Shown in pieces: positions 54,339 through 61,127 of a stretch of 64,000 nucleotides of DNA. The position numbers and the translations under genes were made by a program. Location: contig NZ_BMED01000002.1 of assembly GCF_014636315.1 (NCBI RefSeq), forward strand, positions 124,001 to 188,000. The letters run 5' to 3'. The notes below the pieces were generated by a model. It saw nothing but the letters and a program-made list of their open reading frames with translations. It searched no databases and was not told where the DNA came from. Numbering within the stretch: the stretch's first letter is position 1; every line of letters starts with the position of its first letter. This stretch comes from Parundibacterium terreum. Its GTDB lineage: Bacteria; Pseudomonadota; Gammaproteobacteria; Burkholderiales; Burkholderiaceae_D.

Positions 54339-54899
54339 TCAGTGCAAATTCCTGCGTAAGGCGGCAGTACCAGGCAACAGCATTGCCACACTCTTCCACC
54401 CGTAACCAACTTCCTGCAAATCCATGCCATCCCAATTGAAGCCCTGCTCTATCAGCAGTTCTGCGCCGAGGTGTTCGTAAAACTTGCGGGCCGGTTTATT
54501 GCCGGAGATGACCCACACCAGCAAACCCTTTGCCCCTTTGGCCTTCAGGGCCTGCGCCACATCCTGCACCATGCGCCGGCCTATGCCGGAACGCTGCATG
54601 TCCGGGCTCAGATAGACTGCAGTCAGCTCTGCATCCAGGCCCAGTTTTTCTTCCGGCAGCAGCATGCCGGAGGCAAAGCCGACGATGCCGTTTTCGCTCT
54701 CGGCAACAAACACGCATACCCTGTCGCTGGCTACTTCCAGTATCTTGGCCCAGTGGGCGGCGCTTTCATCCAGCTTCATGTCGTCCAGATAGCTATCCGG
54801 AATCATGCCGCGGTAAGTGGCGCGCCAGCTCTTGATACGTACTTCGGCGATAGCCTCGGCATCCGCCACGGTGGCCGGACGCAAAATCACATTCATCAT
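54339..54899 (-). CDS. GNAT family N-acetyltransferase between tkt and gapA
   Basis: 186 residues. Family features: [20 protein letters not shown] at the start, [20 protein letters not shown] (acetyl-CoA loop), and [16 protein letters not shown]. The ATG overlaps the tkt stop (ATGA), so it is translationally coupled to transketolase. Substrate unknown. A second ATG three bases on is equally possible. Confidence 0.9.
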
Positions 54900-56911
54900 G
54901 CCTGGTAGTTCTTTACTGTTTCGTTGACGACTTTCACGACATTTTCTGTCGTAAAGCCGAAGTGCTTGAACAGCACCGGCGCAGGAGCAGACTCACCGAA
55001 GGTATCGATACCGACGACTGCACCTTCCAGGCCCACGTATTTGTACCAGAACGAAGTCACACCGGCTTCAATGGCGATGCGCGGCAAACCCTTGCCCAAT
55101 ACGCTGGCCTTGTAGGCTGCGTCCTGGCGATCGAACACATCGGTGGACGGCATTGAAACAACGCGTACCGGCGTACCTTGCTGCGCCAGTTCTGCCGCAG
55201 CCTTGACGGCCAGTTCCACTTCAGAACCTGTGGCGATCAGCACTGCCTTGGCGCCGGCAACATCTTGCAGCACATAGCCGCCGCGCTGGATGTCGGCGAT
55301 TTGTGCTGCTGTGCGTTCCTGGTAAGGCAGGTTCTGGCGCGAGAAAATCAAAGTGCTTGGACCGTTATGGCGCTTCACTGCATGCGCCCAGGCGCCGGCA
55401 GATTCCACGGTGTCGCAAGGACGCCAGTTGTCCAGGTTAGGGATCAGGCGCAGGCTGGAAATGTGTTCTACCGACTGATGCGTAGGACCGTCTTCGCCCA
55501 AACCGATGGAGTCATGCGTGAACACGAACAGCGAACGGATCTGCATCAGCGCTGCCATGCGAATCGCATTGCGGCTGTAGTCGGAGAAGGTCAGGAAGGT
55601 TGCGCCGAAAGGGATATAGCCGCCGTGCAGTGCAATACCGTTCATGATCGCGCTCATGCCGAATTCGCGCACGCCATAGTTGATATGGTTGCCGGCCTGG
55701 TTGCCGCGTACTGCGACAGATTCTTTCCAGTTGGTCAGGTTGGAACCTGTCAGGTCGGCAGAGCCGCCCAGGAATTCTGGCAAGGACGGTGCAAAGGCCT
55801 GGATCGCATTCTGGCTGGCTTTACGGGTCGCGATGTTTTCTTTTTTCTCTACGCAAGAGGCGATTGCCGCTTTCACTACTTCATCAAAATTGGCGGGCAG
55901 TTCGCCTTTCATGCGGCGGCTCAGTTCAGCCGCTTCTTTCGGGAATTTGTCGGCGTAGGCTTTAAAGTCGCCATCCCATTGTGTTTCCACTGCCTGGCCC
56001 TTGGCCTTGGCATCCCAGGCGGAATAAACATCGGCAGGAATTTCAAATGGCGCGAAATCCCACTGGATATGGCTGCGCACTGCAGCGATTTCCTTGTCGC
56101 CCAATGCGGCGCCATGCACGTTATGCGTGCCTTCCATGTTAGGAGAGCCTTTGCCGATCACGGTTTTGCAGCAGATCAGCGTCGGCTTGTCGGACAGTTT
56201 GGCGGCAGCAATCGCTTTCGATACTTCTGCGGCATTGTGGCCATCCACAGCAGGAATCACATTCCAGCCATACGAAGCAAAGCGCTTGGGCGTATCGTCG
56301 GTGAACCAGCCCTCTACGTGGCCGTCAATGGAAATGCCATTGTCGTCCCACAGCGCGATCAGCTTGTTCAGGCGCAGTGTACCTGCCAGCGAACATGCTT
56401 CATGCGAGATGCCTTCCATCAGGCAGCCATCGCCGAGGAATACATAGGTGTGATGATCAACGATATCCATGCCCGGCTTGTTGAATTCCGCTGCCAGCAG
56501 TTTTTCTGCCAGCGCCATGCCGACTGCATTGGTAATGCCCTGGCCCAGTGGGCCGGTAGTGGTTTCTATGCCTGGAGTGATATGCACTTCAGGATGACCC
56601 GGCGTCTTGGAATGCAACTGGCGGAAATTGCGCAGCTCGTCCATGCTCAGGTCATAGCCTGTCAGGTGCAGCAATGCATAATGCAACATGGAGCCGTGGC
56701 CATTGGACAGCACGAAGCGGTCGCGGTTGATCCACTTTGGATTGGTCGGGTTGTGACGATAGTGTTCTGTCCACAGAGCAACAGCGATGTCCGCCATCCC
56801 CATAGGCATGCCGGGGTGACCGGAATTGGCCTTTTGTACTGCATCCATTGCCAATGCGCGTATTGCATTGGCCATTTTGGTGGTTGTTGCTGGCTGGAGA
56901 GAAGAAGTCAT
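54896..56911 (-). CDS. tkt: Transketolase
   Basis: 671 residues, TPP-dependent two-carbon transfer in the pentose phosphate pathway. Signatures [40 protein letters not shown] and [20 protein letters not shown] (TPP-binding GDG), then [39 protein letters not shown] in the pyrimidine domain. Full length; gapA lies downstream after a GNAT gene. Confidence 0.97.
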
Positions 56912-57096
56912 GGCGGTCAGTGGTAGTCTGGGGTGATTTTGAAAATGCTTAGCACTAAGCTTGACACAAAATTAAGAAAACAAGCTTAACAATACTGCAA
57001 GTCAGAACATGCGAGGTTCTGCAAAGCCCATTATTTTACCAGAGCATGACGCGCATATTACAATTGCTGCTTTTATATCAAGCAATTCAAGGCTTT

Positions 57097-58362
57097 ATGG
57101 AAGGTTTACACCTCACGGCGGACTGTTTTGATTGCACTTGCCATCGATCTTTATTACTGGATCAAAAAGAGTTAAGCGACATCGCGGTTGCAGCCGCACT
57201 GCAGGCCGGACTGACAGTTGTCGGAGAGAAATTCCACTCTTTCAGCAATCCGGACGGCAGCGCCGCCGGTGTCACTTGCGCACTTCTGCTGGCCGAATCG
57301 CACATCGCGATCCATACCTGGCCTGAGCGCAATGCAGTGACGCTGGATGTGTATGTCTGCAACTTCAACGACAACAACAGTGACAAGGCGCGCGACATCA
57401 TCGCCATGCTGGTCGAAGCATTTCAGCCAGCCTCTGTCTCCAGGCAGCAGCTGACGCGCGGCAGGCAGCATGATGCGCCAGCTGTGATGACATGGGAAAA
57501 ACTGACGCCGCACACCGCCTATGGCACGCAATTGGGGCATACGATTGCTGAGGCGAGCAGCAGTTTCCAGCATATACAGATCAGTGAATCGGCGGAGTTC
57601 GGCAAGATCATGCGCATAGACGACGCCTACATGACATCCGAGAGAGACGAGTTCTTTTATCACGAGTGCCTGGTGCATCCAGCCGCGTTAGCCCACCCTG
57701 CCCCGCGCCGCGCATTGATCATCGGCGGCGGCGATGGCGGTTCGACCGAGGAATTGCTGAAGCATCCAGGCATGGAACATGTCAGCCTGTGCGAGATCGA
57801 TGCGGAAGTGGTCCGCCTGTCGCGCGCGCATCTGCAAAACATCCATCACGGCAAGCTGGATGACTCCAGGGTCGAGCATGTCCACGCAGACGGTTTTGCA
57901 TTCATACGCGAAGCCACAGATTCTTATGACCTGATCCTGCTGGACTTGACCGACCCTGTGACTCCGTCAGGCACCACGCTTGCCGCTGGCTGCGTCACTG
58001 TGGATTTTTTTGCCGATTGCAAACGCAGGCTGTCGCAAGATGGCTGCCTGGTGATGCACCTGGGCAGCCCGTTTTATCATCCGCAACGCTTCGCCGGCAC
58101 CGTCGCCGACTTGCGCAAGAGCTTCCGGTTTGTACGCCCTTACACCGTCTTTGTACCTCTGTATGGCGCGCTATGGGGGATGGCAATCGCCAGCAACACG
58201 CTGGACCCTTGCGAGCCGGAGATCGCTACACTGGAAGAGCGCATCCGCGAACGGCGCATCGGCGACCTGCAGTACTACAACGCAGAAATACACAAGGCGC
58301 TATTCGTTCTTCCCAATTTCGTGCAAAATCTGCTACACAACAACAAGCAGGAGATGCAGTGA
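57097..58362 (+). CDS. Fused S-adenosylmethionine decarboxylase and spermidine synthase (SpeD-SpeE)
   Basis: 421 residues from the ATG with AAGG five bases before; an ATG 51 bases upstream would add 17 residues. SpeD part (1-about 120): FHSFSNPDGSAAGVTCALLL, and AESHIAIHTWPE with Ser68 as the likely pyruvoyl-forming residue, plus LDVYVC. SpeE part (about 135-421): YMTSERDEFFYHECLVHPAA, ALIIGGGDGGSTEELLKHPG, and LLDLTDP with the catalytic Asp. One polypeptide thus makes decarboxylated AdoMet and transfers its aminopropyl group. First gene of a four-gene cluster. Confidence 0.93.
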   Translation: MEGLHLTADCFDCTCHRSLLLDQKELSDIAVAAALQAGLTVVGEKFHSFSNPDGSAAGVTCALLLAESHIAIHTWPERNAVTLDVYVCNFNDNNSDKARDIIAMLVEAFQPASVSRQQLTRGRQHDAPAVMTWEKLTPHTAYGTQLGHTIAEASSSFQHIQISESAEFGKIMRIDDAYMTSERDEFFYHECLVHPAALAHPAPRRALIIGGGDGGSTEELLKHPGMEHVSLCEIDAEVVRLSRAHLQNIHHGKLDDSRVEHVHADGFAFIREATDSYDLILLDLTDPVTPSGTTLAAGCVTVDFFADCKRRLSQDGCLVMHLGSPFYHPQRFAGTVADLRKSFRFVRPYTVFVPLYGALWGMAIASNTLDPCEPEIATLEERIRERRIGDLQYYNAEIHKALFVLPNFVQNLLHNNKQEMQ

Positions 58363-58769
58363 GTCATTCCGCACATCCCCACACCACTCGCCCCAAGCGC
58401 AAAAGCGGCGCGGTGCCGCTGGCGCTGGCAACGACGCTGGCTGCCAGCACCGCCCTGAGCGGCTGCGGCAACTCGGGCAGCAGCACCACGATACGCGACG
58501 GCTATACCAGCCTGGACGATTGTGTGAAGGACTGGGGTTCCGCCGACAAATGCCAGCGCCCACCGGGCAGTACAGGCGGGTCAAGCCACGGCGGATCCGG
58601 CGTGAGCCATTACTACGGCCCCAGCTACAGCGAAGGCGGCCGTGAAGCCGCACAGCGCAGCGCCACCGGCAGCAGCACCTCCGGCAATCACGCAGTCAGC
58701 CGCAGCGTCAGCAGTATCAGCCGCGGTGGTTTCGGCGGCAGCGCGCACGGCTCTTCGGGCGGCGGCTGA
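58359..58769 (+). CDS. YgiB/DUF1190-like lipoprotein
   Basis: 136 residues from GTG with AGGAG six bases before, overlapping the fusion gene's stop. Lipoprotein signal with lipobox LSGC (Cys about 35). YTSLDDCVKDWGSADKCQ resembles the DDC-type block of the YgiB/UPF0441 family, and the serine- and glycine-rich end with RGGFG is similar in style. It is shorter than E. coli YgiB (about 220 residues). Assignment is by pattern, not by alignment. Its stop overlaps the start of the ATP-grasp gene (ATGA-like). Confidence 0.75.
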   Translation: MSHSAHPHTTRPKRKSGAVPLALATTLAASTALSGCGNSGSSTTIRDGYTSLDDCVKDWGSADKCQRPPGSTGGSSHGGSGVSHYYGPSYSEGGREAAQRSATGSSTSGNHAVSRSVSSISRGGFGGSAHGSSGGG

Positions 58770-59920
58770 TGATCAGGGAATCCTTAACGCCGCGCAGCAA
58801 CTGGCAGGCGCAATTTGAATCGCTGGGATTCAGCTACCATTCCATCGACGGGCTGTACTGGGATGAGCGTTACGCTTACCGCTTTACCGCCGCGCAAATA
58901 GATACGCTGGAACAGGCGAGCCTGGATTTGCACCAGATGGCGCTGCAAGCAGCCGAGCATGTGATCCGCACTGAAAGGCTGGAACAGTTCGCCATTCCCA
59001 AGGCATTCTGGCCGCTGGTAGAGCAAAGCTGGCGCGACAGGGAGTTTTCACTATACGGCCGCTTCGACCTGAGCTGGAATGGTGAAGGCCCGCCCAAGCT
59101 GCTGGAATACAATGCAGATACGCCTACCGGCCTGGTGGAATCCAGTGTCGCCCAATGGTATTGGCTGCAGGATGTCTACCCGCACGCGGACCAGTTCAAT
59201 TCCCTGCATGAAAAGTTGATAGAACAATGGAAATCCTACTCCGCCAAAGGCATGCTGCATTTTGCCTGTGCCGGCGGCAATGAAGAAGATGAAGGCAATT
59301 TGTCCTATCTGCGGGACACCGCCATCCAGGCCGGCCTGGCAACCAAGCAATGTGCGATAGAGGAACTGGGCTGGGATAGCAGCAACGAAGAGTTTGTCGA
59401 CAATGCAGATGTCAGGATAGACAATCTGTTCAAGCTTTACCCCTGGGAGTGGCTGTGCCGCGAGGAATTCGCGCCGCAATTATTGACGCAGACAAAACAG
59501 CCGGCTCAGCGCATGCGCATCATCGAACCGGCGTGGAAGATGCTGCTGTCCAATAAGGCCATATTGCCGGTATTGTGGGAATTGTTCCCCGGCCACCCTA
59601 ACCTGCTCCCTGCGTACTACGATGCCTGGAAGATCAGCGGCAATTTCGTCAAGAAACCATTATATTCGCGCGAAGGCGAAAACATCTCCGTCTATGCCGA
59701 CGGCAACGTGATTCACACACCGGGTGAATATGGCGCAGAAGGCTATATCTACCAGGCCTATGCGCCGCAGCCGAAGTTTGATGACGGCATCACGCCCGCC
59801 TATACGTCGATAGGCGCGTGGATAGTCGGCGATGAGGCGGCCGGCATAGGCATACGCGAAGATGAAACCCTGATCACCAAAAACACCAGCCGCTTCATCC
59901 CCCACTACTTCGTCGACTAG
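58769..59920 (+). CDS. Glutathionylspermidine synthase-like ATP-grasp protein (YgiC/YjfC family)
   Basis: 383 residues. FDLSWNGEGPPKLLEYNADT and TPTGLVESSVAQWYW are the family signature, with ATP-grasp parts SREGENISVYADGNV and YTSIGAWIVGDEAAGIGIRE. The amidase domain of E. coli Gss is absent. Members ligate an amine to a carboxylate in principle, but YgiC-type proteins have no settled substrate. Its start overlaps the preceding lipoprotein stop, and a DUF350 gene follows nine bases later. Confidence 0.92.
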   Translation: MIRESLTPRSNWQAQFESLGFSYHSIDGLYWDERYAYRFTAAQIDTLEQASLDLHQMALQAAEHVIRTERLEQFAIPKAFWPLVEQSWRDREFSLYGRFDLSWNGEGPPKLLEYNADTPTGLVESSVAQWYWLQDVYPHADQFNSLHEKLIEQWKSYSAKGMLHFACAGGNEEDEGNLSYLRDTAIQAGLATKQCAIEELGWDSSNEEFVDNADVRIDNLFKLYPWEWLCREEFAPQLLTQTKQPAQRMRIIEPAWKMLLSNKAILPVLWELFPGHPNLLPAYYDAWKISGNFVKKPLYSREGENISVYADGNVIHTPGEYGAEGYIYQAYAPQPKFDDGITPAYTSIGAWIVGDEAAGIGIREDETLITKNTSRFIPHYFVD

Positions 59921-59928
59921 GAAATGCC

Positions 59929-60336
59929 ATGAGCGAACAAATCATGTTATCGGGACTGCCGGCATTCATCAGCCACTTCGGCGCCGCCATTCTGTTGCTG
60001 GCGGTCTTCATCGTCATCTATATCTGGATTACCCCCTACCGCGAAATCAATCTGATACGCGGCGGGAATACCGCGGCCGCGGCCAGCTTGTCCGGCTCCA
60101 TACTCGGCTACTGCATAGCACTCGCTTCCGCCATCGCTAATAGCGTGAACCTGGTCGATATGCTGTGCTGGGGCGCGATCGCGCTGGTAGTGCAACTACT
60201 TGCCTTTTTTGTCGTCAGACTATTACTGCCCGGCATCGTCTCCGACATTCCGGACAATAAGGCCGCCTCCGGTATCTTTCTGGGCGCAATGAGCCTAGGA
60301 TTAGGCCTGATCAATGCTGCCTGCATGACCTATTAA
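59929..60336 (+). CDS. DUF350 family membrane protein (YjfL-like)
   Basis: 135 residues, four predicted helices: about 14-32, 49-69, 76-96 and 113-132. The repeat-like halves and the sequence YREINLIRGGNTAAAASLSG match the DUF350/YjfL family. SGIFLGAMSLGLGLINAACM ends the protein. In E. coli, genes for a DUF350, a YgiB-type and a YgiC-type protein also sit together (yjfL-yjfM-yjfC). Function unknown, membrane-located. Confidence 0.92.
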   Translation: MSEQIMLSGLPAFISHFGAAILLLAVFIVIYIWITPYREINLIRGGNTAAAASLSGSILGYCIALASAIANSVNLVDMLCWGAIALVVQLLAFFVVRLLLPGIVSDIPDNKAASGIFLGAMSLGLGLINAACMTY

Positions 60337-60401: not shown

Positions 60402-61127
60402 ATGCCCCGTTTTTATTGCCCCATGCCACTTGCTATCGGCGCTGTCGTCAGCCTGCCGGATGAAGTGGCGCACCATGTATTTGTATTGCGCCAGAACGTA
60501 GGCGACAGCATCAGTCTGTTCAATGGCGAGGGCGGTTCCTTTGTCGCCACGCTGACCCAGGTCGGCAAAAAACAGGTTGAAGCCGAGGTCAAATTATTCC
60601 TGCCCGGCGAAACCGAACTACCTTATGCGCTGACCCTGGCGCAAGCCTTGCCGGAAGCCTCCAAGATGGACTGGATCATAGAAAAATCCATAGAACTGGG
60701 AGCATCGACGATACAGCCTCTGTCTGCGCAGCGCTGCGTGGTCAGGCTTTCTGCAGAACGCGCAGAAAAGAAGCAGGCACACTGGCAAGGCATCATCGTA
60801 TCAGCCGCAGAACAATGTGGTCGCAATCGCCTGGCCCACCTGGCGCCGTTGATGGATGTCAATAAATGGTTAAGCCAGCAGGATATGCATAAACGTATTA
60901 TCCTGACCCCACGAGCCGATCAGTCCCTGGCAGACTGGTCGCGTCACCATCCGGCGCAGGCAGTAACGCTGATGGTAGGGCCGGAAGGCGGATTCTCCGA
61001 ACCGGAAGAAGATCTTGCCGTAAAACAAGGTGTACTCGCGCTTTCCATGGGGCCCAGGATACTGCGCACAGAAACCGCCGGCTTGGCAGCCATTGCGGTA
61101 TTAAATGCAGCATGGGGCGGGATGTAA
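60402..61127 (+). CDS. rsmE: 16S rRNA (uracil(1498)-N(3))-methyltransferase
   Basis: 241 residues from ATG giving MPRFYCPMPL; the frame continues upstream without similarity. SPOUT-fold enzyme: N-terminal PUA-like part VVSLPDEVAHHVFVLRQNVG, QALPEASKMDWIIEKSIELG, IVSAAEQCGRNRLAHLAPL, then the SAM knot MVGPEGGFSEPEE and MGPRILRTETAGLAAIAVLN. Methylates U1498 of 16S rRNA. Not obviously linked to the polyamine cluster. Confidence 0.95.
   Translation: MPRFYCPMPLAIGAVVSLPDEVAHHVFVLRQNVGDSISLFNGEGGSFVATLTQVGKKQVEAEVKLFLPGETELPYALTLAQALPEASKMDWIIEKSIELGASTIQPLSAQRCVVRLSAERAEKKQAHWQGIIVSAAEQCGRNRLAHLAPLMDVNKWLSQQDMHKRIILTPRADQSLADWSRHHPAQAVTLMVGPEGGFSEPEEDLAVKQGVLALSMGPRILRTETAGLAAIAVLNAAWGGM

Follow-up and report, generated by a model that had tools for sequence, protein, structure and literature searches.

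A putative protein polyamination operon in Parundibacterium terreum linking a SpeD-SpeE fusion to a tail-bearing lipoprotein and a YgiC/YjfC-type ligase

Background

The closest described relatives of the locus analysed here are the ygiB-ygiC and yjfL-yjfM-yjfC gene sets of E. coli, in which an ATP-grasp ligase is preceded directly by a tail-bearing partner of the DUF1190 type and, in the case of yjfM-yjfC, adjoined by DUF350. The same ligase type, partner and DUF350 neighbour are found in a 64,000-nucleotide (nt) stretch of the Parundibacterium terreum genome (contig NZ_BMED01000002.1, positions 124,001 to 188,000; hereafter the window). The window adds a gene that joins S-adenosylmethionine (AdoMet) decarboxylase (SpeD) to spermidine synthase (SpeE), and its lipoprotein is shorter and very divergent. 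We propose, with a probability of roughly 0.6, that the ligase amidates the C-terminus of its partner lipoprotein with a polyamine, the lipoprotein tail serving as the acceptor. A preliminary description of the window had credited the E. coli trio with no settled function, which is outdated for the enzyme class, as RefSeq gives both YgiC and YjfC the product name 'peptide--spermidine ligase'. Pederick et al. 2023, judging by the title, reportedly make the same assignment.

Related gene sets have been described in a wider setting. The accessible part of Ravi et al. 2024 (PMC11237479) reports ATP-grasp, DUF350 and DUF1190 proteins in operons linked to the phage shock protein (PSP) response, including variants with AdoMet decarboxylase, and attributes recognition of the link to polyamines to Li et al. 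2019. A GspS-related ATP-grasp protein, DUF350 and a lipoprotein are common to those operons and the window, whereas no PspA, K+ channel or DUF2491 was noted in the window, and that part of the paper makes no mention of the tail as a substrate. The E. coli gene yjfC shares an operon-like run with yjfJ, a member of the PspA family; in the window genome PspA (PF04012) is unmatched, and membership of the window operon in the PSP group was rejected on this ground. A functional parallel, as opposed to kinship, comes from eukaryotes, where the accessible part of a study of SUMO-spermidine (PMC12270671) describes ATP-dependent attachment of spermidine to a protein C-terminal carboxylate. There, E1/E2 enzymes act on a ubiquitin-like fold, in contrast to the ATP-grasp ligase and disordered-looking tail considered here. 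Among the matches listed in a search of the open-access literature, no title or abstract linked an RGGFG tail with a YgiC/YjfC-type ligase. The outline, namely the trio and the name peptide--spermidine ligase, is already known, and the contribution made here is a probable acceptor.

Results

A conserved tail beside the ligase

The operon and its salient sites, all on the forward strand, are as follows (positions within the window).

57097..58362, + strand: SpeD-SpeE fusion (P0001), AdoMet decarboxylase joined to aminopropyltransferase, with PF02675 and PF01564; a longer open reading frame (ORF) runs from 57046
57298..57300, + strand: serine codon (P0001 residue 85) within AESHIAIHTWPE, a motif conserved among those aligned SpeD proteins that extend over it
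57961..57993, + strand: insertion after the DLTDP motif in the SpeE domain of the fusion, from an alignment of SpeE proteins
58359..58769, + strand: small lipoprotein (P0002), a distant YgiB/YjfM (DUF1190) relative and proposed acceptor, with a GTG start and a signal with lipobox
58722..58766, + strand: C-terminal tail RGGFGGSAHGSSGGG of the lipoprotein, with proposed polyamine attachment at its last residue
58769..59920, + strand: YgiC/YjfC-type ATP-grasp ligase (P0003), PF03738, with YgiC and YjfC as nearest solved structures
59929..60336, + strand: DUF350 (YjfL-like) membrane protein, PF03994

The fusion stop overlaps the GTG start of the lipoprotein by 4 nt, the lipoprotein stop overlaps the ligase start by 1 nt, and a gap of 8 nt separates the ligase from the DUF350 gene, in agreement with the preliminary description of four overlapping or nearly touching genes. 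The lipoprotein has a signal sequence with an LSGC lipobox at residue 36 and shares 31-42% identity with seven homologues from its order. It has no Pfam match at E 0.01, and PF06693 (DUF1190) is unmatched in the whole genome. Of the lipoproteins tested from six relatives, four gave sub-threshold DUF1190 matches, and in two cases the match covered nothing but the C-terminal motif. The earlier label 'YgiB-like' stands as regards distant kinship and an RGGFG-type tail, and fails as regards a PF06693 match in P0002.

Alignment of eight lipoproteins from the order places their strongest common feature near the C-terminus, as SRGGFG or similar followed by a Ser/Gly-rich end. Beside the E. coli ligases, YgiB ends in RGGFG...GG and YjfM in RGGYG...GG. 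RGGFG-type tails also lie beside the ligase in records titled Alphaproteobacteria, Desulfuromonadales, Nitrospiraceae and Verrucomicrobia, as well as Bacteroidetes, Planctomycetaceae, Okeania and 'uncultured archaeon', some of these being titles of metagenome-assembled genomes (MAGs) that may be wrong. The bodies of the tail proteins vary, and five from diverse loci are without any Pfam family. A search of the window genome for CGN-coded RGGFG, with AGR codons and motif variants outside its scope, found five places, of which one is the lipoprotein and the other four have no Ser/Gly-rich C-terminus.

Tails were counted with a strict motif, [RKH][GS]GF[GT] within the last 50 residues of a same-strand ligase neighbour, in named loci that represent the best 80 of 580 relatives and lean towards the window sequence (L031 is the same contig as L022). 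A strict tail was present in 75/80 and a variant in 2/80, and L033 begins at a contig edge. A phylum sample of 85 YgiC-type loci held 68 strict tails, 15 variants, one degenerate case (L146) and one locus without a tail (L183). The strict tails comprise 58 adjoining the ligase and 10 on another gene of the stretch (L160, L169, six alphaproteobacterial loci, L129 and L138). Loci up to L135 served for the choice of the motif, and 55 YgiC-type loci among L136-L206 were fetched afterwards. These later loci show 30 strict tails adjoining the ligase, two strict further downstream, six strict on the other strand and one strict further upstream (L138), the remainder being 14 variants, the degenerate L146 and the tail-less L183. 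Variants (RGGYG, RQGFG and SGGFG were seen) and the degenerate case were assigned by visual inspection, and L143 and L150, where relaxed-pattern matches arose by chance, were counted by their DUF1190 genes.

Several apparent exceptions were rejected on closer view. The six alphaproteobacterial loci each have a DUF1190 gene with a strict tail on the opposite strand, at a distance of 2.7-3.8 kb, the gene before their ligase looking PspA-like by eye, and wider stretches of L129 and L138 show a strict tail protein beside DUF350, further upstream. The strict tail gene ends at most 30 nt from the ligase start in 122/133 cases. As background, the strict motif was found in 4/3172 non-adjacent ORFs of at least 150 residues, counted as stop-to-stop frames of which many are not genes. 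Fifteen lower-scoring phylum matches comprise 12 of the glutathionylspermidine synthetase/amidase (GspSA) type, the fragment L205, L191 without a tail and L192 with one; L206 had no scorable ligase. None of the 12 GspSA-type loci has a tail (frames of 621-656 residues; 4/4 of those tested carry CHAP and GSP_synth).

The composition of the tails points to their very end. Among 143 distinct strict tail proteins, the terminal residue is Gly in 95, Ser in 44 and another residue in 4. A Gly-Gly end is found in 92/143, about 12 times the roughly 5.5% that a tail content of 23% Gly would predict. Asp and Glu make up 1.3% of residues after the motif versus 6.7% in the preceding 100 residues, and 122/143 tails have none, so the C-terminal carboxylate is usually the sole one available to an amide ligase. 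Fourteen YgiB-like tails (L104-L117) keep the RGGFG core and the GG end constant over tail lengths of 27 to 31 residues, a pattern that fits a recognition element combined with a reactive terminus. A simple pattern search found a lipobox-like pattern in 100/143 strict tail proteins.

Class and residues of the ligase

The ligase matches PF03738 (GSP_synth) over residues 12-381 of 383 (501.8 bits, E 1.7e-150), with no other family found, and is the sole match to this family in the window genome. E. coli YgiC and YjfC are the best solved structures (7uk8, E 2.9e-103; 7uk6, E 1.4e-101), with weaker matches to GspSA (E 5.8e-44) and trypanothione synthetase (E 1.4e-31). The synthetase domain of E. 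coli GspSA is homologous, and its R316, D318, E330 and N332, which we take to be ATP/Mg-binding residues, have their counterparts in R98, D100, E113 and N115 of P0003, invariant in ten homologues. The ATP-grasp residues are hence in place. GspSA differs in its CHAP amidase and in loci that have no tail protein in 12/12 cases; P0003 has no CHAP domain in a Pfam scan (in contrast to the GspSA-type L193, L198, L199 and L202), is linked to a tail protein and falls far under the NCBIfam GspSA cut-off (PRK10507, 166.2 of 882 bits). The earlier proposal that the ligase conjugates a polyamine to a carboxylate appears well supported by kinship with YgiC/YjfC, the RefSeq names, the Pederick title and the kept residues.

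Among the named best 80 of 580, the closest ligase relatives are from a Burkholderiaceae MAG (83% identity), Undibacterium sp. TS12, an Oxalobacteraceae MAG and a MAG titled Collimonas fungivorans. The MAG titles Bordetella parapertussis, Klebsiella pneumoniae and Rhizobium (L040, L041, L060, L068) look unreliable, the ligases being nearest to those of other Proteobacteria. A divergent PF03738 protein at L216:6961-8082 (the same ligase as L191) has neither a CHAP-sized extension nor a tail neighbour and perhaps represents another subfamily.

Recurrence and loss across genomes

PF03738 occurs in 10/120 genomes of the order, the window's included, and in 91/398 genomes of the phylum. The lipoprotein-ligase-DUF350 trio is present in 8/9 other order genomes with the ligase, and in four of those eight it is preceded by speD and speE, as split genes in L016, L017 and L022 and as a fusion in L020. 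A GNAT acetyltransferase gene lies between tail gene and ligase in L022 (7144-7710). Because the split loci share the divergent transketolase with the window, the simplest history would be that the SpeD-SpeE fusion arose by merger of neighbours in place. Across 90 loci (nine order relatives, the 80 named loci and the window), speD and/or speE stand upstream of tail gene and ligase in 18 (17 distinct places), of which 18/18 have DUF350 and 7/18 are fused. The four-gene set of the preliminary description is thereby a recurrent one. DUF350 itself was detected in 66/90 loci by a single-sequence search, probably an undercount.

DUF1190 (PF06693) was found in 62/398 phylum genomes, 60 of which also have PF03738 against 14.2 expected (hypergeometric 2.8e-45, kinship ignored). 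The two genomes with DUF1190 and without PF03738 are G204 and G472, the latter with a weak match (E 2.8e-5). Within the family of G204, DUF1190 occurs in 18 of 199 genomes, PF03738 in 21 and both in 17. The tail is retained, with a GG end, in all 17 genomes with both (16 strict, one SKGFG), and in the four others, which have the ligase and no DUF1190 match, a tail protein adjoins the ligase (three strict, one RGGLG). G204, which has DUF1190 and no PF03738 match, carries a decayed tail with KGGVG, acidic residues at the end and no GG, suggestive of one natural loss of the ligase accompanied by tail decay.

Triamine synthesis upstream of the tail gene

The single ORF 57046-58362 holds AdoMet_dc (PF02675, 93.1 bits, E 1.7e-26) and Spermine_synth (PF01564, 145.7 bits, E 1.5e-42), both above cut-off, which bears out the fusion proposed earlier. 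The SpeD part passes the NCBIfam model SAM_DCase_Bsu (TIGR03330, 82.5 vs a cut-off of 75.65 bits) and carries the AESH...HTWPE motif of Bacillus/Thermotoga-type AdoMet decarboxylases. Serine 85 is presumably the expected pyruvoyl-forming serine, as in class 1b AdoMet decarboxylases. The SpeE part passes NCBIfam PRK00811 (309.6 vs 260 bits) and misses the cut-off of TIGR00417 (222.3 vs 249.55 bits). SpeD-SpeE fusions were reportedly described by Green et al. 2011, the Delftia fusion being said to make spermidine; the one-chain enzyme is alike, while that of the window is tied to a ligase operon. Genome-wide profile searches returned the fusion as the sole PF02675 match and as the leading PF01564 match (E 6.6e-43), two others being far weaker (E 8.2e-14 and 2.3e-9). 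The genome likely has a source of putrescine, because one strong Orn/Lys/Arg decarboxylase match lies elsewhere in it. In the alignment of SpeE domains, the window, L024, L025, L026, L029 and L030 have 5-8 extra residues right after DLTDP, absent from L020 and from the split SpeE proteins; the other SpeE proteins there mostly read GPxxxLY.

A different enzyme takes this place in other lineages. Homospermidine synthase, unrelated to SpeD and SpeE, alternates with them upstream; its gene lies directly upstream of the tail gene in L059, L065 (Limnohabitans), L074 (Massilia rhizosphaerae), L083 and L086, and directly upstream of the ligase in L176. In L234 (5304-9066), two different tail genes flank the homospermidine synthase gene and are followed by ligase and DUF350, giving two candidate acceptors for one ligase. 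In one genome, a single ORF directly before the ligase (L023:4177-5979) runs from a homospermidine synthase-like enzyme through a hydrophobic stretch to a DUF1190-like body with an RGGFG...GGG tail. The synthase part of that ORF matches 42/300 order genomes, most of them without demonstrated ligase linkage. The enzyme was identified by Pfam saccharopine dehydrogenase domains in five proteins and by comparison of the L234 protein with the solved structure 6y87 (E 2.5e-104); NCBIfam gave the saccharopine-dehydrogenase-like proteins no name, the structure comparison did. That two unrelated triamine syntheses adjoin the same tail-ligase pair argues for a triamine as the amine used by the ligase.

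Discussion

The operon might constitute a self-contained protein polyamination module. Putrescine from the Orn/Lys/Arg decarboxylase would be converted to spermidine, or a close relative, by the SpeD-SpeE fusion, and the YgiC/YjfC-type ligase would recognise the RGGFG tail of the lipoprotein encoded by the neighbouring gene. As suggested by the enzyme family, ATP would activate the C-terminal carboxylate of the tail as an acyl phosphate, to which a primary amine of the polyamine would be joined, much as glutathionylspermidine synthetase acts on the C-terminal glycine of glutathione. We infer that the tail is the substrate and that its modification comes before export. After export and lipidation, the modified lipoprotein would hold a permanently attached polycation at the envelope by way of a flexible Ser/Gly arm, possibly with DUF350 as its membrane partner. 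The preliminary description had tentatively placed the conjugation at the envelope, through the lipoprotein and the membrane partner. Involvement of the lipoprotein is retained, more likely as an acceptor through its C-terminal tail, and a passive partnership appears less likely.

Several observations weigh against tail polyamination. The ligase should be cytosolic while its partner has a signal sequence, hence modification must precede export. In all 14 enterobacterial YgiB tails (L104-L117) the motif is followed immediately by a single Glu or Asp, which offers a carboxylate besides that of the C-terminus. Two of the 80 named loci (L099, L100) have the ligase and no tail found nearby, the tail of L146 is degenerate, and the ligase of L183 has no tail nearby, its genome having a tail protein on another contig (L246). 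Tail decay was seen in the one case of G204. In most of the 90 ligase loci no speDE or homospermidine synthase gene adjoins, and homospermidine synthase is often encoded elsewhere, as in the ligase genomes G012, G052 and G060, where it is on another contig.

Part of the evidence on the tail would also suit a docking or targeting element that holds the ligase near the membrane, the product being a small polyamine-peptide metabolite. Across the 143 tails the last residue varies more than RGGFG does, the variants RGGYG, RQGFG and SGGFG are tolerated, and the GspSA relatives within PF03738 are known as a family to act on the small peptide glutathione. Against docking stand a terminal GG at about 12 times its compositional expectation and the near exclusion of acidic residues; moreover, G204, without a detected ligase, has lost both core and GG end, and P0003 contains no amidase domain by which a conjugate could be recycled. 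We consider docking unlikely. A role in redox defence, with glutathionylspermidine or a comparable free thiol conjugate as the product, draws on the Pfam family common to GspSA and trypanothione synthetase. It was judged unlikely, indeed highly improbable, in view of the missing CHAP domain, the 166 bits against the GspSA cut-off, GspSA loci without a tail partner and YgiC, which the accessible part of PMC12506659, citing Sui 2012, reports to be without that activity.

The place of the fusion in the operon could alternatively reflect inheritance or shared control, with SpeDE as a general supply of spermidine and no dedicated use. With no other SpeD match and no other strong SpeE match in the genome, the fusion must serve any general need for spermidine, and the gene order from tkt to rsmE is kept in relatives, which fits vertical inheritance. 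The overlap of the genes speaks against such a general role, as does the unrelated triamine synthase found upstream in other lineages and once fused to the tail protein, and we regard an undedicated SpeDE as somewhat unlikely. The choice of amine raises a further question. The DLTDP insertion of the fused Oxalobacteraceae-like clade possibly marks a change of amine acceptor, being confined to six fused sequences among those aligned, and 2-hydroxyputrescine is a betaproteobacterial polyamine. A SpeE domain that aminopropylates such a non-putrescine acceptor, with the ligase attaching the product, is nonetheless quite doubtful, given that the Delftia fusion reportedly makes spermidine.

Polyamination of the lipoprotein tail would have consequences beyond this locus. 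The conserved tail gives YgiC/YjfC-type ligases a concrete candidate target. If correct, a prokaryotic protein modification would end an envelope protein in a polycation, an outcome parallel to SUMO-spermidine in eukaryotes, and DUF1190 and DUF350, two families without a defined function, would be tied to polyamines. Whether C-terminal polyamination is widespread in prokaryotes, with ligases putting spermidine or homospermidine on an envelope protein ending in RGGFG...GG and the amine made on the spot in some lineages, we rate at even odds.

Gene boundaries and neighbouring genes

The host genome comprises 6.37 Mb in 16 contigs. For the fusion, the start at 57097 (MEGLHLTADCF) adopted earlier is preferred over 57046, the ORF of the homologue in L029 beginning with MDGLHLTADCF. 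Promoter-like and terminator-like sites were no commoner than in shuffled sequence (3 vs 2.7 and 4 vs 3.2, respectively). Two neighbours lie outside the module and serve as context.

54896..56911, - strand: divergent transketolase, identified by Pfam and common to 14 loci in neighbourhood clustering
60402..61127, + strand: RsmE-type RNA methyltransferase, downstream, PF04452 with 175.4 bits, common to 15 clustered loci

The DUF350 protein matches PF03994 with 129.8 bits against a cut-off of 26 (E 8.8e-38). Its C-terminus is strongly kept across many loci, reading about NAACMTY and ending the last hydrophobic stretch (60310-60333 in the window).

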